Positions 4,756 through 42,897 of a stretch of DNA of 46,636 bases are shown piece after piece (positions within the stretch are counted from its first letter, which is position 1; each line of letters opens with the position of its first letter). Position numbers and translations under genes: made by a program. Source of the DNA: a virus. The stretch covers positions 1-46,636 of the IMG/VR virus record IMGVR_UViG_3300032032_000005; one strand, 5' to 3'. A model generated the notes under the pieces. That model did not search any database and was not told the origin of the DNA. It worked only from the letters and a program-made list of their open reading frames with translations.

Positions 4756-4808
4756 ATAGGAGCGGCTATCTCGGCTGCAATGTGTTCTTTAAAAAGGGAG
4801 AAATGCTT

Positions 4809-6296
4809 ATGCCTTATAAGGCAAAGGGCCGTGCTGTGCCCAAAACAGCACAACGAGCTTGGTTCGACGTTGATCGAAAAGGTCTGTCTCAGTTGATGGC
4901 CGACAGGCCCCGGTCGTTCCTGCTGTCCGAGCTGATCCAAAACGCTTGGGATCAAAACGTGACCAAAGTAACCGTTGAAATCGAGAAGCTCCGTCGCGGC
5001 CTCGCGGTCGTACGTGTAGTGGACGACGACCCCGACGGTTGGTCTGACTTGACCCATGCTTACACCCTCTATGCGCCGTCGGCTAAGAAGGCCGATCCAA
5101 CGCGACGAGGGCGGTTCAACATTGGCGAGAAGCTCGTCCTGTCCGTGTGCCGTGAGGCGCGGATCGTAACGGTGACCGGCGGTGTCGCATTTGACGCGAA
5201 GGGTCGTCACAACCTTCGCAGCCGACGGGAGTCGGGCAGTCTGTTCGAGGCGACGTTACCGTTGACCGACGTGGACATTCGGGCGTTCGAAATATTTTTC
5301 GATAGCCTGATCTGTCCACCCGGAATCGCGACGACGCTCAAGGTGCAGGATCGGATCGTGACAATAGACGCACGTTCCCCGGTCAGCACGCTGGAACTGA
5401 CGCTGCCGACAGTCATTGCCGACGCCGAAGGCAACCTGAAGCGAAGCCGCCGTACCACGACGGTCGAGCTTTACGAGCCGACGGTGGATGAGATGCCCAG
5501 CATTTACGAGTTGGGGATCCCAGTGGTTGAGATTGAAGGGCGCTGGCACTTGAACGTGCAGCAAAAGGTGCCGCTTAACTCTGATCGCGACAACGTGACG
5601 CCCGCCTATCTGGCGGAACTCAGGGTCGCGGTTCTGAACGCGGCGGCGCACTTGCTAGACACCGAGGACTTTTCTGACGCGTGGGTGACAGAAGCTTCAT
5701 CGGACGTTCGCTGCACGAACGAGGTGACGGAGCGCGTGATGACGGCGAGGTTCGGGGACAAGCGGGTCGCTTACGATCCGTCGAATCCCGAAGCGAACCG
5801 TGTCGCGGCGGCCCACGGCTACACGGTTATCACCGGGGGCACTCTGACCGGCGGCCAATGGGGGAACGCCAAGGCGGCGTCTGCCATAACGGCTGCGGGG
5901 CAGAAGTTCCCGACGAGCTACGACGCGTATTCGAACGATCCGAATGCGCCCGAAGCGGAAACCGTGGATCCGGCCAATTGGACGGACGACCAACGCGACA
6001 CGGTAGCGTTTTCTCAGCGGCTGCACGAGCTACTGCTAGGCTGCTCAACTGAGGTCGTTCTCGTCAAAACCGACAACGCTTTCGCGGCGGCGTACTCAAA
6101 GCGGAGTCTGCACCTGAACGTTGACGCGCTGGGACGACAATGGTTCCGGCGTGAAAACAGAAAAGTTCAGGTGGAGCTACTGCTCCATGAGTTCGCGCAC
6201 TTCCATGAAAGCGACCACTTGTCCGAGAATTTTGCGGACACCGTGGGAAGTTTGGGAGCCAAGCTGGCAGCGCACTTGGGTTTGGACAACCTCTAG
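4809..6296 (+). CDS. GHKL ATPase fused to HExxH metalloprotease-like C-terminus
   Basis: A 495-residue protein read alone on the plus strand. Residues 38-110 carry the GHKL (Hsp90/gyrase B-type) nucleotide pocket: N-box LLSELIQNAWD (Glu41, Asn45), G1 box DDDPDG (72-77) and G2-like GRFNIGEK (101-108). The C-terminus has HEFAH (460-464), then HLSENFAD whose Glu473 could be the third zinc ligand, as in gluzincin and M78-type peptidases. The middle (about 200-440) is not recognised. ATG 4809 is preferred to 4803 because GGGAG at 4796-4800 then has an 8-nt spacing. It has its own promoter and terminator. GHKL domains occur in T4 rIIA-like proteins, but the metalloprotease motif sets this one apart. 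Substrate and role are unknown. Confidence 0.8.
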   Translation: MPYKAKGRAVPKTAQRAWFDVDRKGLSQLMADRPRSFLLSELIQNAWDQNVTKVTVEIEKLRRGLAVVRVVDDDPDGWSDLTHAYTLYAPSAKKADPTRRGRFNIGEKLVLSVCREARIVTVTGGVAFDAKGRHNLRSRRESGSLFEATLPLTDVDIRAFEIFFDSLICPPGIATTLKVQDRIVTIDARSPVSTLELTLPTVIADAEGNLKRSRRTTTVELYEPTVDEMPSIYELGIPVVEIEGRWHLNVQQKVPLNSDRDNVTPAYLAELRVAVLNAAAHLLDTEDFSDAWVTEASSDVRCTNEVTERVMTARFGDKRVAYDPSNPEANRVAAAHGYTVITGGTLTGGQWGNAKAASAITAAGQKFPTSYDAYSNDPNAPEAETVDPANWTDDQRDTVAFSQRLHELLLGCSTEVVLVKTDNAFAAAYSKRSLHLNVDALGRQWFRRENRKVQVELLLHEFAHFHESDHLSENFADTVGSLGAKLAAHLGLDNL

Positions 6297-10783: not shown

Positions 10784-12288
10784 ATTAGGTAGCTCAAATT
10801 TAGGTTTTCTGGTTCCACAATATATAAGTTTTGTCTTGCGCGTGTTACTCCCACGTAAAAAACGCGGTGCGTGTCATTGTCGAAATCCAACGCGGCTGCG
10901 GGCGCTAGATCGGAAAACAAAACGACGTTATCCGCTTCGCCGCCTTTCGCTTGATGAATGGTGGATAATCGAATACGCGGTTCGGCGTTGAACTTTTCTC
11001 CGCGCCGTAACAAGGCGACGATGTACGCACGATCGGCATCCGGCAGGCGGTCCATGGCTTCGTGCCAGATCTGGTCCGCACTAGCCACCAATCCGTGTTG
11101 TTTCTGAAGTTTTTCCAGTGTGAACATCGTGGTGTCGTCTTCGAGAATTTTTTTGTGCCCACGGTTGACTCGTACGCCATTTCCGGACATGTATGCATAA
11201 ATGCACTGAGCCGTGTGCAGTGAGACTTCGTTCCCTTTCCGCAAAGTTTCCCACCCATTGACAGCTTCGGATAATTTTTCAGAAATCGATCGCTGGCGGG
11301 GACGTTCGAAAAGGTAGCCCATGGAGCGCAATGTGGTGTCCAGCGGGTCCAGCATGTAATTCGCTTGGGTAAGAATGAGCCATGAGCCGTGGGACAGGTC
11401 TGCTTCGGACAGGTCATAGATCCGTTCGACGGTGCCCTTTTCCTGCCGGGGCAGGTATCGCTTGGGGTACCGGTCTGTGATCCGCGACACAATTTTATCG
11501 GCAACGGTATGGACACTTTGTGGGATCCGATAGGATTGCTCCAAGGTTTCGGTGCCGCCGGGGAGGTGGATGAATTGATTGATGTCTGCTCCCGCCCAAC
11601 GGTAGATGGCTTGGTCGTCGTCGCCCGCGCAATACATTTTTTCGCTGTGCTTATCCAGACCGTGGGCAATGTCCCATTGCAGTGGACTCAGGTCTTGTGC
11701 TTCATCGAGAAAGCAGACTTTGAACCGTGGGCAGTGGTCCGCCATATTTTCCGCAAACATCACGAGCGTATCTGTGTAGTCCAGCAGACCGTTCGCTTTT
11801 TTATACTTGTGGTAGGCGCGGGCCACGTACGACACTTCTTCCCACACGTTATCCAAATGGGATTGGTCGTATTGCGCCCGAACGGAGACTTTCCGCAACC
11901 TCGCTAAATTTATGAGGCTTAGAATGGGGTGGTCCGAGGAAGAAAGTGTTGTTCCATCGCCCACAAAGGGTTCTTTTTTGGACCGTACCAACTCGATCCC
12001 AAGGTGCTTTGAAAGCTCATGGAAATGTGAGATTTCCATTTGTTGATCTTTGCGAAGCCCGAGGAGCCTGTAGGACAAACTGTGTAATGTGCGAAAGTAG
12101 ACGAGGTCCTGTTCCGCATCCAAGTTAAATCGCTTCGCGGCGCGGTCCCGCGCTTCCGTGGCGGCTTTTTTCGTGAACGAGAGGAATGCGATCTGGTTAG
12201 GAGGCACTTCATCGGCCAGAGCTTGATCCACCAGATTCAACAGCGTCGTCGTTTTGCCCGTACCGGGGGGTCCGAAGATCCGAAACAT
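10780..12288 (-). CDS. UvrD/Rep-like SF1 DNA helicase
   Basis: A 502-residue superfamily 1A helicase. Walker A is GPPGTGKTTT (6-15), motif Ia FLSFTKKAA, motif II FLDEAQD (193-199), motif III AGDDDQAIYRWAGAD (221-235), motif IV-like LEQSYRIP, motif V STIHQAKGGEADNV and motif VI FYVGVTRARQNLYIV near the C-terminus. It unwinds duplex DNA 3' to 5' and is probably the replicative helicase here, since no DnaB-type helicase is present. It is shorter than host UvrD (about 720 residues), lacking part of the 2B region. ATG overlaps the primase stop (TGATG). Confidence 0.93.
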   Translation of the reverse strand: MFRIFGPPGTGKTTTLLNLVDQALADEVPPNQIAFLSFTKKAATEARDRAAKRFNLDAEQDLVYFRTLHSLSYRLLGLRKDQQMEISHFHELSKHLGIELVRSKKEPFVGDGTTLSSSDHPILSLINLARLRKVSVRAQYDQSHLDNVWEEVSYVARAYHKYKKANGLLDYTDTLVMFAENMADHCPRFKVCFLDEAQDLSPLQWDIAHGLDKHSEKMYCAGDDDQAIYRWAGADINQFIHLPGGTETLEQSYRIPQSVHTVADKIVSRITDRYPKRYLPRQEKGTVERIYDLSEADLSHGSWLILTQANYMLDPLDTTLRSMGYLFERPRQRSISEKLSEAVNGWETLRKGNEVSLHTAQCIYAYMSGNGVRVNRGHKKILEDDTTMFTLEKLQKQHGLVASADQIWHEAMDRLPDADRAYIVALLRRGEKFNAEPRIRLSTIHQAKGGEADNVVLFSDLAPAAALDFDNDTHRVFYVGVTRARQNLYIVEPENLNLSYLI

Positions 12289-13826
12289 CAGAAAGGGGAG
12301 TCCTTATTTTCCCCGAAATCTGGGGCAGGCACTTCAACAGCATGCTGTTCGTGCGCCGGAATAGACCAGACGCGGATAGGTTTCCCGCTCACTTTGAGGA
12401 GAATCGATTTCCCGTTGATGTCCCGCAGACGCTGGGCCATCTTGTGCGGTTTGAAATCAAAGAACCGGTTCTTTCGCAGGAAGGCATCAAAATCTTTGAG
12501 TCGGAAATATGTGACACCGTCTTCTTCATCGGTGTAAGGGCGTCTTAAAAGGATTTCCTCCCGTTCACTGGCGCGCTGCTTGCTCGTGCACCACTCTTCG
12601 AGGAAATCATAAAACTGTCCCGCGATGCTGGCGTCCTGACTCACTTCCCGTACGTTTCCCTCGGTTTGCGTCATGTCCATCAACAAGTGGTTCAGGCGTC
12701 CTTCCCACACTTCTTTGGTTTGAGTTCGCGGCATGAAATTCAATTGTTCGACGCAGGATCTCTGGAAGGCGGGCTGGTTCATTAGACCTTCCGTGTCCAT
12801 TTCCAAGGGCTGTCCGTTCACGTCCACAAACCAGACGGGAGGCTGGCTGTTATATTTTCGAAGGTTGGCGATAAGTGTTCCGGTGGCCGTGGCGTCTACG
12901 CCGTGCTTTCGTGTCCGGCATAAATCAGCATTGCAAAAGGCGTTTATGGGGCTGTCTTTACATTTGTACGTGTAGTCTTTTTTCTGCAACTGCTTGGCGA
13001 CAACATTGACTTCCGAGAGGGGCAACGGAGGAACAAGGTAGTTGGCGTTGTAATTCAAAATCTCCGTTTCCCATGCGTCTGGGAAGGCTTTTCGCAAAAA
13101 AACGCCGATATTGAACAGGCCGTTATTTCGGGATCCCTCGGAAATTTTTTGAGAACACAGATGCTGTAGACAGGGAGGGCCGTCGGGAACGGGCGTACCG
13201 TCCGTGGCTTCAATGGTCAGGGCCAGCAACTGCTCTGGAGTTTGAACATGCTTTTCGTGAAGCTCAAAAAACTCGGAAAGTGTGGCAGCGGAGCCGTCAT
13301 CATGGATAGCGTAGCGCAACCCATCGGAGGCATCATAGTACGGAATGTTCAGAAAATTCCCTACATCCCCCCGGTCCAGATTGAGTTGGATCTGTTTAGG
13401 AAACACCTCACACGTGCCGTAGCCCAGCCCTGCGCTCAAACTCTGCAACACCTCTTGCATCTCTTTTGCGGCAATCCACTCCGTGCAGAACAAAAAGCAA
13501 TGTGCGCCTCCGGATTTGCTTCGACAAACGACAAGCGGCAATTTTGCTTTGCGGATTTTTTCCACCAGCACTTTGTGGTCCAGCGGATACTCATCAATAT
13601 CGAGACAACCCCAGCGGCATTCGTTCGTTTCGTTGATGGGAATGATCCCAATCGAAACCCCTTCCCCGCTCAAGTGGTTTTCCCACAGAGCCGTGGTTCG
13701 TGGTTCGCGAACTAGGCTGGCTTTTCCTAGATTTTTTCCGTTCGCGTTTTTTCGTTTGACATTGTAGGTTCCGTACGCCTGTCTCAGGCCGTCGAAAATA
13801 CCTGCAAATTTTCCTGCATCTGACAT
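12288..13826 (-). CDS. Archaeo-eukaryotic-type primase (TOTE-like)
   Basis: A 512-residue primase of the AEP superfamily. Motif I is WGCLDIDEY (Asp76, Asp78), motif II CRSKSGGAHCFLF (His109), and EVFPKQ (140-145) followed by GNFLNIPYYD matches the TOTE-type primase core. A PriCT-like helical segment (NNGLFNIGVFLRKAFPDAW) follows, then a cysteine cluster (YTYKCKDSPINAFC, NADLC) that could bind zinc or an Fe-S cluster. The C-terminal third is less conserved and may contact the helicase. The ATG at 13826 has a strong GGGGGG site 4-5 nt upstream. It replaces the usual DnaG-type primase. Confidence 0.88.
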   Translation of the reverse strand: MSDAGKFAGIFDGLRQAYGTYNVKRKNANGKNLGKASLVREPRTTALWENHLSGEGVSIGIIPINETNECRWGCLDIDEYPLDHKVLVEKIRKAKLPLVVCRSKSGGAHCFLFCTEWIAAKEMQEVLQSLSAGLGYGTCEVFPKQIQLNLDRGDVGNFLNIPYYDASDGLRYAIHDDGSAATLSEFFELHEKHVQTPEQLLALTIEATDGTPVPDGPPCLQHLCSQKISEGSRNNGLFNIGVFLRKAFPDAWETEILNYNANYLVPPLPLSEVNVVAKQLQKKDYTYKCKDSPINAFCNADLCRTRKHGVDATATGTLIANLRKYNSQPPVWFVDVNGQPLEMDTEGLMNQPAFQRSCVEQLNFMPRTQTKEVWEGRLNHLLMDMTQTEGNVREVSQDASIAGQFYDFLEEWCTSKQRASEREEILLRRPYTDEEDGVTYFRLKDFDAFLRKNRFFDFKPHKMAQRLRDINGKSILLKVSGKPIRVWSIPAHEQHAVEVPAPDFGENKDSPF

Positions 13827-13887
13827 GAAACCCCCCTGATCGAGACGGCGCATAACGCGCCGTCATAATTTTTTGTTTTATTTCCGA

Positions 13888-15306: not shown

Positions 15307-15335
15307 TTTACGCGGCCTAGAATGTCTTATATCAT
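15307..15335 (+). promoter_or_regulatory. Putative promoter of the SNF2 helicase gene
   Basis: TTTACG (15307-15312), 17-nt spacer, TATCAT (15330-15335) about 23 nt before the ATG at 15358. The sequence GTCTTATATC inside it resembles GTCTTATACA before the plus-strand peptide gene at 7996. Confidence 0.4.
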
Positions 15336-15357
15336 TGCACAAGTCAAGGGGAAAACT

Positions 15358-16827
15358 ATGCTCGCATCGACACGCACTTATGATTTCAAAACGAAGCCCT
15401 ATGAGCATCAGGCGGTCGCTCTGAAAACCTCGTGCTTTTCAGAATATTACGCTCTGTATATGGAAATGGGCACGGGAAAAAGCAAAGTTATTGTGGACAC
15501 GATGGCGTCGCTGTTTGAAGCAGGACACATTGACACGGTTCTCATTCTGGCTCCGAAGGGCGTTTACGACAACTGGGTCAGAGCTGAGATCCCCCGGCAC
15601 CTGCCCGACCGCGTCCATCACAATTTGGTCCGGTGGCAAAACAACCTCACAAAAAAATTTATTGCTGAGATGCAAGGCATTCTCTATCCAGCCACGCGTG
15701 AAGCAGAAACGCTGCACACTTTGGTGATGAACATCGAAGCCATGAGTACGAAAAAGGGCGCAAGCACGGTTCTCAAATACCTCAAGAACAATCCCAAAAA
15801 TTTATTGGTCGTAGACGAAAGCACGGCCATAAAAAATCATAAAGCGCTGCGGACAAAAAACATTATCAAGGCGGCTCAGTTTGCGAAGTACCGGCGAATT
15901 CTGACCGGTTCGCCCATCACAAAATCCCCTATGGACCTGTACAGTCAATGTACGTTTTTAAGCCCCAAGGCTTTAGGCTTCAAAAGTTTTTATGCGTTTC
16001 GAAATCGTTATGCGCGAATGCAGCAACGTCATATTGGTCCCCGCAGCATTCAGGAAATTGTGGGTTACCAACGGCTCGATGAACTGAATGAAAAGCTTAA
16101 TCGGTTCTCGCTGAGAACACTGAAAAAAGATTGTTTAGATCTGCCCGAAAAAATTTACATGCGCCGAGACGTTCCTTTAACCGCAGAGCAAGAACGCCTC
16201 TATCGACAGATGAAAAAGTTGGCGCTCGCGCAGTTCGATCAAGGAGAACTGGCAACCACTTCTTCTGTTTTGACACAAATCATGAGACTTCAACAAATCA
16301 CCTGTGGGTTTTTAAAACCAGACAACGGTGAAATAGAAGAGATCAAAAACAACCGCCTCGACGAACTCATGGCGGTTGTCGAAGAGCTTCAGGGAAAGGC
16401 AATCATATGGGCTTCGTGGACGCACGATATAGTCCGGATTGACAAAGCCCTGCGCCGTCGCTTTGGAGACGAAGCGGCGGCCTCTTATTTCGGCGAAACC
16501 GAACAGAAGCATCGACAGGAAATAGTCGAAAAGTTTCAGGACCCCGATTCAGAATTGCGGTTTTTTGTCGGCCAGCCGAGAACCGGGGGGTTTGGATTAA
16601 CTCTCTCCGTCGCTCAGACGGTCATCTACTTCAGCAACAGTTATGATCTAGAGATCCGGCTCCAGTCGGAAGACCGCGCCCATAGAATAGGTCAAGAAAA
16701 TAACGTGACCTACATAGATCTCGTTACTCCCGACACCATTGATGAAAAAATCCTGCAAGCACTGCGGGATAAGATCAATATCTCAAGTCAGGTGCTAGGG
16801 GAAAAAGCCCGCGAATGGCTAATCTAG
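15358..16827 (+). CDS. SNF2-family helicase/ATPase
   Basis: A 489-residue superfamily 2 protein on the opposite strand to its neighbours. Walker A MEMGTGKSK (35-43), motif II VVDESTAIKN (151-160), motif III ILTGSPI (181-187), the second RecA domain with GFGLTLSVAQTVIYF and motif VI RAHRIGQ (440-446), the classic SNF2 signature. ATG 15358 has AAGGGG 6 nt upstream, better than the ATG at 15322. Phage SNF2 proteins are thought to remodel DNA-protein complexes or restart replication. Its stop overlaps the convergent giant virion gene by 4 bp. There is no nuclease domain. Confidence 0.92.
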   Translation: MLASTRTYDFKTKPYEHQAVALKTSCFSEYYALYMEMGTGKSKVIVDTMASLFEAGHIDTVLILAPKGVYDNWVRAEIPRHLPDRVHHNLVRWQNNLTKKFIAEMQGILYPATREAETLHTLVMNIEAMSTKKGASTVLKYLKNNPKNLLVVDESTAIKNHKALRTKNIIKAAQFAKYRRILTGSPITKSPMDLYSQCTFLSPKALGFKSFYAFRNRYARMQQRHIGPRSIQEIVGYQRLDELNEKLNRFSLRTLKKDCLDLPEKIYMRRDVPLTAEQERLYRQMKKLALAQFDQGELATTSSVLTQIMRLQQITCGFLKPDNGEIEEIKNNRLDELMAVVEELQGKAIIWASWTHDIVRIDKALRRRFGDEAAASYFGETEQKHRQEIVEKFQDPDSELRFFVGQPRTGGFGLTLSVAQTVIYFSNSYDLEIRLQSEDRAHRIGQENNVTYIDLVTPDTIDEKILQALRDKINISSQVLGEKAREWLI

Positions 16828-37828: not shown

Positions 37829-38335
37829 TTATGCGTCAGCAAATGGAGTAACTACCGTGCCAGAAGCAAGCACTGTCCCACTAACAACGTATTTTGCACT
37901 AGCCGCCGCGTAACAAGTGACCACTGAGCCAACAATACCGCCCTTGGTGGAACCATTCATCGTGATGACATCATTAGATCCGCCAGACATAAAGGTCTTG
38001 CCCGCCGCATCACTCTTACCAAGATAAAGTCCACCGACAAACTTGTCTGTTCCATCGGTCAAAATATCCATATCCGTAGCTGCGGTAATCACTAAGAAAG
38101 TGAAGGTTGCGCCAAGGTTGTTGAGCTGAGTGGGATCCGTCGGATCGCCGGGAGTTGTAACGTCAATAGAAGGCAACGTGAATTTGCCATCGGCGTCATT
38201 AGTTAGTAATAGTCTTCCTGCGTGAGAAGCAACGGTCAGCGTCGTATCCGCCGTTAGGCTAACAACACCCGTGGAACCCGCATTAATGAAGCCTGCCAAA
38301 GATCGAACTGGACCTGAAAAAGTAGTTTTCGCCAC
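37829..38335 (-). CDS. Putative head decoration protein
   Basis: A 168-residue Gly/Thr/Ala-rich protein read from a GTG start at 38335, with AAGGGGG 7 nt upstream. Repeated beta patterns (AGSTGVVSLTADTTLTVASH, GRLLLTNDADGKFTLPS, GIVGSVVTCYAAASAKYVVS) suggest a beta-sandwich or a fold like phage head fibre/decoration proteins. It is the first gene after the major capsid gene, separated from it by a terminator and a possible pseudoknot whose 3' arm overlaps the ribosome site, so its level may be set by RNA structure. Confidence 0.7.
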   Translation of the reverse strand: MAKTTFSGPVRSLAGFINAGSTGVVSLTADTTLTVASHAGRLLLTNDADGKFTLPSIDVTTPGDPTDPTQLNNLGATFTFLVITAATDMDILTDGTDKFVGGLYLGKSDAAGKTFMSGGSNDVITMNGSTKGGIVGSVVTCYAAASAKYVVSGTVLASGTVVTPFADA

Positions 38336-38346
38336 TTTATTACCCC

Positions 38347-38405
38347 CTTACCAAAGGTTTTGCCCTAGAGTCTTGGTAAGCGTCTGCTGGGACAGTCGCT
38401 AGGGC
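38347..38405 (-). ncRNA. Putative H-type pseudoknot in the leader of the 38335 gene
   Basis: In the leftward RNA, GCCCUAG (38399-38405) can pair with CUAGGGC (38362-38368), and CUUACCAA (38373-38380) in its loop can pair with UUGGUAAG (38347-38354) beyond it. This crossing order is an H-type pseudoknot. The loop also holds an imperfect GCG-A-CUG / CAG-A-CGC hairpin. The last arm runs into the AAGGGGG ribosome site, so folding could control translation. Seen by eye; not folded by program. Confidence 0.5.
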
Positions 38406-38413
38406 TAATTTTC

Positions 38414-38448
38414 CCAGAAAAGCAGAGGGGCGACAGAAGCCACCCCTC
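38414..38448 (-). terminator. Terminator/attenuator after the major capsid gene
   Basis: Minus strand: GAGGGGTGGC, loop TTCT, GTCGCCCCTC forms a 10-bp stem with two G-T wobbles, followed by TGCTTTTC. It begins 20 nt after the capsid stop. The T run is short, so read-through to downstream genes is likely; this would raise capsid mRNA over later genes. Confidence 0.75.
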
Positions 38449-38468
38449 CATTCCTTCAGAACGAAAAA

Positions 38469-39374
38469 TTACGCTCCGGGTGTACCAAAAACACCACGCC
38501 AGTCAGAAACACCAAAGCTGTAACGCTCCCGTGCCTTAAAACGCATGTTTCCAGTATCAAAATCACCCTCCATCGCGGTACGGATCGGCGTACGCTGAAA
38601 CAGCTTAAAGCCGTTTGGCGCATCCGTTTTAATGAAAAACGCATCCGTATCAGTCAAGAAGTGATTGACATAAGCCCCTTCGGGTAACATCCCCATTGCT
38701 TTCATGGCGTTAATATCATTATCCGCCGTTCCTGCACGTAGGGTTGAGTTAAGCACCCGCTCGGATATAAATTGCAGTTCCTTTGGAATGAGCAATTTCA
38801 TTCCACGAACCGCAACTTTCAATCCGCGCTCATCCGTCAATCCGGCAATATCAATCAACATCTGCTCAAGAGAGGTTTCGTTGAGATCCGCTGCGGTAGA
38901 CAGCACATTACGCTGATTACCGGTAAGCGACGGATGTGAAGACGAGCAAAGAGCCGCGCCATCCCCAATGGGATAAGAAGTGTCAAAAGCATTGTTCAAC
39001 ACCGCAGCAGCTTTAACCTGCTTCGTTTGCGACATTGAACGTGCTAAAGCGCGGGTATACCGAGAAGCCAAACGATCATACAGGTTATCTTCGATCGCTT
39101 CTTCCGTAATGCTGAACGCAAGCGCAATGGTGTCATGCGTATAACGAGCAGTATATGTTTCCTGCGCGTCATCGAATGAAATTGCACTGCCTTCACCTTT
39201 TACCGGAGCCGTTCCGAAACCGGCAAGCATTACTTCCTCTTCAAATGCACGATCTGAAGACTCTTCTTCGTAGATTGCGGTATGTTCTTTGTCATACCGG
39301 TCATATTCAAGCCCGAACAAGGCATTAAGGCCGGGTTCAAGCTCTTTCGCGAGTTGTGCGCGAGAAATAGCCAT
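38469..39374 (-). CDS. Major capsid protein (HK97 fold)
   Basis: A 301-residue protein with the strongest ribosome site in the region (AGGAGGG). LNALFGLEYDRYDKEHTAIY, AFEEEVMLAGFGTAPVKGEG, EEAIEDNLYDRLASRYTRAL and ARSMSQTKQVKAAAVLNNAF are typical of a major head protein group related to Mu gpT-like HK97-fold capsids. VAVRGMKLLIPKELQFISER forms the A-domain spine strand and helix, and YSFGVSDWRGVFG is the C-terminal strand. No long N-terminal delta domain, so assembly relies on the separate scaffold gene upstream. Confidence 0.9.
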   Translation of the reverse strand: MAISRAQLAKELEPGLNALFGLEYDRYDKEHTAIYEEESSDRAFEEEVMLAGFGTAPVKGEGSAISFDDAQETYTARYTHDTIALAFSITEEAIEDNLYDRLASRYTRALARSMSQTKQVKAAAVLNNAFDTSYPIGDGAALCSSSHPSLTGNQRNVLSTAADLNETSLEQMLIDIAGLTDERGLKVAVRGMKLLIPKELQFISERVLNSTLRAGTADNDINAMKAMGMLPEGAYVNHFLTDTDAFFIKTDAPNGFKLFQRTPIRTAMEGDFDTGNMRFKARERYSFGVSDWRGVFGTPGA

Positions 39375-41499: not shown

Positions 41500-41919
41500 T
41501 TAGATATTAATAATGTCATCGGGGTCAAGAATAGTGGCTAAAACCTCATCATCATTAATGATGCGGACCTCGCCTCCCTCTATTCGAAGTCTGGACCCTG
41601 CGTACCTAGCAATAATGATCCAGTCCTTTTCCTTACACCAAGCCCCGTCAGGAAATTTTTCCGTATCCTTATAAGCTAAGGGGCCTTGTTTTATGACATA
41701 GGAAACAACCGTTTGTATTTGACCTTCTTCAAGGGTTTTGTCCGGTAGGTGAATACCTCCGTCGGTCGTACCTTTTCCCCGATAGGGGAGAATCAGCAGT
41801 CTCCAACCCGTAGGGTTGGGCATTCTTTCCAAAAGCGTATTATCAAGAAGAGTTGGGTCCAGTACACGCCCCTCTTCTTTAACGTACAGATTTTCTACCT
41901 TTTGAGCAGCTTCAGTCAT
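41500..41919 (-). CDS. GroES-like co-chaperonin (Cpn10)
   Basis: A 139-residue protein with an N-terminal extension of about 35 residues, then NPTGWRLLILPYRGKGTTDG, a mobile-loop-like GGIHLPDKTLEEGQ, QTVVSYVIKQGPLAYKD, WCKEKDWIIIARYAGSRLRI and a terminal EVRIINDDEVLATILDP. This is the Cpn10 fold; the mobile loop with GGI-L would dock on host GroEL. It probably replaces host GroES in folding the capsid protein, like T4 gp31. AGGAG before the ATG and an 8-bp overlap with the upstream gene. Confidence 0.88.
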   Translation of the reverse strand: MTEAAQKVENLYVKEEGRVLDPTLLDNTLLERMPNPTGWRLLILPYRGKGTTDGGIHLPDKTLEEGQIQTVVSYVIKQGPLAYKDTEKFPDGAWCKEKDWIIIARYAGSRLRIEGGEVRIINDDEVLATILDPDDIINI

Positions 41920-42243: not shown

Positions 42244-42897
42244 CTAATCCTCTCTTTTTACCCCTAAAGACATATTAGCGGAGAAGGACCGGCGCTCCCC
42301 TTCACCATAAAAAGGGTATGCCGCATGAAATAAATAAGAAGGGAAAACATAAAGGTCGCCTACTTCAGGTTTAAGGCATAAGTTACCGGGACAACACACC
42401 AACGAAGTGCCGTAAATAAAGTCCAAATATCCTTCCGTCGCTTGTTTATCAATATGCTTGCTGTTGCTATCGGAAATGGTTTCGGGAACCTTTAGGTACA
42501 GTACACAAGAATAACTCCCGCTTGTGTGCATGTGCGTTGGATTATAGTCGTTCTCAAAAGCGCGAACAAACCAGCTTTTATGGACCACTAAACTTTCCGG
42601 AATTTCAGTTTGTTCTTCGTTACGCTCCTGAATACAATGGTCATACAAACCTTTGGTAAGTATGTACAGAAGATTTCCGAAATTGGGCACCTTCTCAAGA
42701 TCACAAGACCATTCTTCCCGTACGTGGCCTACTAAATCTTTGGAAAGGTTTAATTCTTCCCGACCATCCGTTTCCAAAATTTCATCGCAATGCAAATTAA
42801 GCGCATCCAACATAGCGGGAGGAACCGTTGCTTTTACAAGACGAGGTCCAAACGGTGTTAATACCGTGGCTTTGATTTGCTGTTCGTTCATTTTCAT
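42244..42897 (-). CDS. 2OG-Fe(II) oxygenase
   Basis: A 217-residue protein of the phage 2OG-Fe(II) oxygenase type (2OG-FeII_Oxy_5/TIGR02466-like). NPTHMHTSGSYSCVLYLKVP has the metal His122 or His124, GDLYVFPSYLFHAAYPF gives His191, and ERRSFSANMS the Arg that binds 2-oxoglutarate. N-terminal FGPRLVKATV is the typical entry strand. Such oxygenases hydroxylate proteins or nucleic acid bases; the target in phages is unknown. It lies between lysis and capsid genes, so a late function is likely. Confidence 0.88.
   Translation of the reverse strand: MKMNEQQIKATVLTPFGPRLVKATVPPAMLDALNLHCDEILETDGREELNLSKDLVGHVREEWSCDLEKVPNFGNLLYILTKGLYDHCIQERNEEQTEIPESLVVHKSWFVRAFENDYNPTHMHTSGSYSCVLYLKVPETISDSNSKHIDKQATEGYLDFIYGTSLVCCPGNLCLKPEVGDLYVFPSYLFHAAYPFYGEGERRSFSANMSLGVKRED

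Follow-up and report, generated by a model that had tools for sequence, protein, structure and literature searches.

The pseudoknot in the leader of phage T4 gene 32 is located before the gene that it controls and serves autogenous control by gp32. Translational riboswitches of the SAM-II and preQ1-II type are pseudoknots with a compact core, in which the last strand reaches the ribosome site and sequesters the Shine-Dalgarno sequence (SD). Closest to the element described here is the Mu-gpT-DE RNA (RF03012), which sits after Mu gpT-like capsid genes and before genes starting with a TTFSGPV motif. The Mu-gpT-DE junction runs in the order outer helix, A, C-G-closed hairpin, AC, pseudoknot strand and GA, contains three GAC motifs and involves the ribosome site. 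In a published re-analysis, RF03012 was among the families with differing database structures and without supported pairs (PMC7657543). Neither a functional study of these leaders nor a function for Mu-gpT-DE was found in the literature searched.

A leader of related architecture is present in a 46,636-nucleotide stretch of viral DNA (IMG/VR record IMGVR_UViG_3300032032_000005, analysed over its full length and referred to as the window). All of its parts, from the capsid gene through a terminator hairpin and the leader to a GTG-started gene, are on the minus strand. The upstream gene (38469..39374, stop codon at 38471-38469) encodes an HK97-fold major capsid protein of the Phage_capsid_4 / Mu gpT-like kind. 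It is followed by a hairpin resembling an intrinsic terminator (38423..38450), GC-rich and trailed by a U run that is weak in this genome (CTTTTC); an earlier note on this DNA had recognised the weak run and had given the stem 10 bp, which is corrected here to 11-12 pairs (38450-38423). Such a hairpin is found after the capsid gene in 79 of 79 relatives. Next comes the leader, about 80 nt long and running up to the GTG at 38335, where the downstream gene (37829..38335) begins with an N-terminal tag, AKTTFSGPVRS, joined to a β-rich body like that of capsid spike or cement (decoration) proteins.

Several other genes in the window deserve mention. A GroES-like (Cpn10) gene (41500-41919, minus) lies upstream of the capsid genes, an arrangement also found in related phages, and a 2OG-Fe(II) oxygenase (42244-42897, minus) is placed amid structural and lysis genes. 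A primase with an archaeo-eukaryotic primase (AEP-TOTE) domain is encoded at 12288-13853 (minus), and an SNF2-like helicase at 15322-16827 (plus) on the strand opposite to its neighbours. A 504-residue open frame at 4782-6296 (plus) is without a PHROGs match and may not be a gene.

Fold of the leader in the window

The earlier note had proposed two crossing helices (GCCCTAG/CTAGGGC and CTTACCAA/TTGGTAAG), and both are present where it had placed them. The outer helix, P2, pairs GCCCUAG (38399..38405) with CUAGGGC (38362..38368). The pseudoknot helix, P4, pairs CTTACCAA (38380-38373) with TTGGTAAG (38354-38347); its 5' arm is the RNA strand CUUACCAA (38373..38380) and its 3' arm is UUGGUAAG (38347..38354). 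As had also been noted, this last arm reaches the ribosome-binding site AAGGGGG of the GTG-started gene: it overlaps 38349-38343 (38343..38349), a site that lies 7 nt ahead of the GTG (38335).

Two further helices and the junction motifs had been missed. P1 pairs CTGGGA (38417-38412; 5' arm CUGGGA, 38412..38417) with TCCCAG (38392-38387), and the 3' arm of P1 makes up the loop of P3, a hairpin of 3 bp (CTG 38395-38393 / CAG 38386-38384). Three GAC motifs frame the junction. The first and second flank P3 in the core GACUG-UCCCAG-CAGAC (38382..38397), which is near-invariant across 33 aligned relatives, and the third is at 38370..38372. The order from 5' to 3' is P1 5', P2 5', GA-[P3 with the P1 3' arm as its loop]-AC, P4 5', GAC, P2 3', 6-7 nt, P4 3' and the SD.

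With the window considered by itself, 65 of 5000 shuffles that keep dinucleotide content (1.3%) contained a crossing pair of perfect helices, each of 7 bp or more, and the nested fold of the region is mildly stable (z -1.86 by MFE folding, which cannot represent crossing helices). Folding of the plus strand yielded nothing. This single-genome evidence is modest; it is conservation in relatives that places the predicted fold beyond chance.

An Rfam search with the window returned no match; the RF03012 gathering threshold was not reached, nor was there a match to this family at E 10. A conserved compact core with crossing helices beside the ribosome site is also what a metabolite-binding riboswitch would present, as in the SAM-II and preQ1-II types. 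The window has no sequence or model match to these, none of the Rfam 15 riboswitch classes gave a covariance-model match to it even at E 10, and the controlled genes encode virion proteins rather than metabolic enzymes, which makes a riboswitch improbable. The T4 gene 32 leader is likewise a phage mRNA leader pseudoknot before the gene controlled; it differs in topology and gene.

Compensatory changes and element classes in relatives

A capsid search yielded at least 80 viral loci and two DNA patterns for the core yielded further ones; from these loci at least 176 distinct elements were extracted. Class A, to which the window element is similar, has the core GACUG-N6-CAGAC, and class B has GACAGG..GCCC..CCUGAC. 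Covariation was assessed by our own imitation of R-scape, a G-test with a tree-based null. In a structure-free alignment of 110 class A sequences, seven column pairs were significant in this tree-aware test (E-values 7e-8 to 3e-2), and all seven fall in predicted helices (six in P2, one in P1). Class A1 alone and class B alone, both of low diversity, gave no significant pairs. The element finder required at least 6 of 8 P2 pairs, a possible selection bias for this helix; the bias proved harmless, as 107 of 110 sequences had at least 6 of 8 pairs when P2 was not selected for.

In a set of 33 diverse members that have P4, the paired fraction of cells is 92.3%; it is 76.5% when the sequences are shuffled and 34-43% when the partners are slid. 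Both sides have changed at 14 of 19 pairs in this set, including 8/8 in P2 and 6/8 in P4. P4 is supported by these pair counts and by a permutation test rather than by the tree-aware test: its strands score 5.66 against their own partners and 3.70 (sd 0.09) against those of other members. P1 appears in compensated forms (CUAGG/CCUAG, CUGGG/CCCAG, CCGGG/CCCGG, CCAGG/CCUGG and CUCGG/CCGGG). P3 is invariant within the 33-sequence alignment, and in one locus outside it (L030) the closing pair is kept through a C-G to U-A change. The earlier note had pointed to covariation in homologues as a check; compensatory changes are abundant there and keep the same fold, clearly the reverse of the absence that would have counted against it. 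The conserved fold is confirmed as real, its predicted helices being established by covariation together with their conservation.

Most capsid relatives carry the Mu-gpT-DE RNA (class C) at the same spot. Six class C loci score 62-70 bits with the RF03012 model, which does not match the class A and B relatives. The window element shares with Mu-gpT-DE its placement between a Mu gpT-like capsid gene and the next virion gene, and the topology of an outer helix around a hairpin with GAC joints; the sequence differs, the Mu-gpT-DE outer helix being CCUG/CAGG. This helix has 7-9 bp in the window vs 3-4 bp in Mu-gpT-DE. The window element also has an additional strand on its upstream side (P1), to which the hairpin loop pairs, and the partner of its pseudoknot strand is located just upstream of the SD, not at the start codon. 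It is best regarded as an expanded, previously undescribed variant of the Mu-gpT-DE kind that falls outside RF03012. The common position, topology and GAC motifs suggest that classes A/B and C derive from one ancestral RNA.

Pairing with the start codon region is a feature of class C that is outside the Rfam model and absent from the window. The pseudoknot strand of RF03012 loci, UAGCCA, is able to base-pair around the start codon (UGGCUA). The two sides change together, GCC with GGC or CCC with GGG (codon 2), and inspection of the class C sequences revealed no discordant case; the one locus flagged by script (L014) has GCCC, which retains its pairing with GGC. When mapped on the capsid tree, the start-codon pairing has changed independently several times, and four strongly supported contrasts are all concordant, too few for significance in a sign test. 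The Rfam structure of Mu-gpT-DE omits this apparent crossing helix (UAGCC/ACCC with the start codon region, for example in L005 and L010). Class A3 is mixed, combining the class A core with a class C-like GCCA/UGGC match of about 4 bp to the start codon, and many of its members have an extra hairpin over the SD. Element type switches often on the capsid tree, with at least 22 changes among A, B and C.

The viruses hosting these leaders are a very common family of ocean phages. Cultured examples are the Pelagibacter phages HTVC023P and HTVC027P and phage DSL-LC04, with class A-like elements, and the Roseobacter phages CRP-901 and CRP-902, with class C elements. Hits in a scan of bacterial genomes were largely due to chance; real elements before tagged genes are present at six loci of metagenome-assembled genomes, which are probably phage contigs. 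One capsid relative (L062, 3906-4070) has a different leader before a gene with a tag-like start (MPTHFLSGV), which might be a further leader type.

The tagged gene and its ribosome site

In 74 of the 80 capsid-fetched loci a gene beginning M..TTFSGPV is present, and the element precedes that gene in 74 of 74, variant elements missed by the strict finder having been read by eye. The loci lacking a tagged gene are incomplete or have another gene. In L027 and L053, among these loci, another gene lies between capsid and element, and the element is still before the tagged gene. The element is tied to the next, tagged gene and not to the capsid gene. That the element travels with the tagged gene shows which gene it would regulate.

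The tag (M..TTFSGPVRS..GF; 38302-38335 in the window) was seen in tagged genes of about 200 loci. It stays constant although at least 10 unrelated protein bodies are joined to it, as if cement or spike domains of the capsid could be exchanged on a common docking arm. All element types are found with the commonest body family. One sister family matches the fold of the cement proteins of cyanophage Pam1 and Ralstonia phage GP4 (7eel_H, E 2e-6; 8h89_J, E 1e-3), a match that does not extend to the body in the window. The latter gave a confident β-rich model (pLDDT 86.5) with one weak match, to the Pa223 capsid spike (9ny6_C, E 1e-4, TM 0.48). The Pam1 cement protein contacts the capsid protein through an extended N-terminal loop (PMC9698820), and by analogy a capsid-contacting role for the tag is plausible.

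Constant leader and tag before differing bodies, together with the frequent switching of element type, could also reflect a DNA-level element, a recombination joint for swapping cement-gene bodies that has no role as RNA. Compensatory changes preserve pairing and not sequence, and the element keeps a fixed position relative to the ribosome site and strand; the covariation results disfavour the recombination joint, and we hold it to be very improbable.

How the ribosome site is engaged varies with class. The SD is touched by P4 in classes A1 and B, and in class A3 by the local hairpin and the short strand matching the start codon. Mu-gpT-DE engages the ribosome site through its outer helix and the start-codon pairing. 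The position at the ribosome site is constant throughout. Leaders that control translation are expected to show this pattern, in which the core is conserved and the 3' part varies, always reaching the SD or the start codon but through different pairings. The folding may only crowd, and not block, the ribosome, since the core GGAGG or GGGG remains outside P4 in classes A1 and B.

A -10-like box is located 4-12 nt before the element in 83 of 83 class B loci (about 14 expected) and 52 of 57 class C loci (about 12 expected), which suggests that in these classes the element is the 5' leader of a new mRNA. The box can be seen right after the terminator, about 10 nt before the element, in loci such as L047, L051 and L054 (classes B and C). 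No such box was seen before the element in the window or in most A1 members; there the leader would be reached by terminator read-through or, in the window, from a promoter not recognised here. The promoter-like boxes bear on the possibility that the fold protects the mRNA 5' end or boosts translation, as a stability or standby structure without switching. In most relatives the box would put P1 near the 5' end of the mRNA, and decoration proteins are needed in high amount. The element would be internal in the window and most A1 members, where no promoter was seen, and a pure cap would not need a 3' part that time and again contacts the ribosome site or the start codon, each time through other pairings. 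We consider such a purely protective or boosting role unlikely.

The earlier note had placed a pseudoknotted leader between the capsid and decoration genes and its final arm next to the ribosome site, which stands, and had further proposed attenuation. The latter is rejected on the order of the parts: the terminator is 5' of the leader, which is transcribed only once the terminator has been passed. The leader is thus unlikely to be an attenuator of that terminator, whose own effect on the mRNA downstream can only be a passive reduction.

Proposed control of cement translation

The arrangement is likely to consist of a terminator of the capsid transcript and a structured leader of the cement gene that sets, and probably switches, cement translation relative to capsid translation. 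The intrinsic terminator would end the capsid transcript, with the cement gene leader following. This leader is predicted to fold into a junction with crossing helices, namely the outer P2 and the hairpin P3 with its loop paired to the P1 strand further upstream, and the P4 strand would leave the junction to pair at the ribosome-binding site. The folded leader may hold or crowd the ribosome site; that folding lowers translation we infer, as we do translational control itself.

A special case of this translational control is autogenous, the capsid or cement protein binding the GAC junction and repressing or releasing the cement gene so that the two proteins are matched. T4 gp32 and the MS2 coat protein are precedents. 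An invariant core with a variable expression part resembles a binding site, the element is always before a cement or spike gene and usually beside the capsid gene, and the N-terminal tag is the sole constant part of the protein. Against this, the element follows the tagged gene where the capsid gene is not adjacent, and with bodies swapped freely a constant ligand could only be the tag or the capsid. Autogenous control remains a tentative and rather unlikely version of the control proposed here. Also speculative, and doubtful, is a broader view in which Mu-gpT-DE and window-type leaders form one superfamily, built on the pseudoknotted junction with three GACs, that senses capsid assembly: the capsid or tag protein would bind it and so adjust cement translation to the supply of capsid protein in many tailed marine phages, whatever body follows.

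Mu-gpT-DE, a family found by computer, now has a more complete structure that includes a helix crossing to the start codon, and is linked to larger pseudoknotted leaders absent from Rfam. The genes that these RNAs serve can now be named as capsid cement and spike proteins with a common N-terminal tag. For tailed DNA phages, the leaders make concrete a question that is seldom asked, namely what sets the amount of decoration protein relative to capsid protein.
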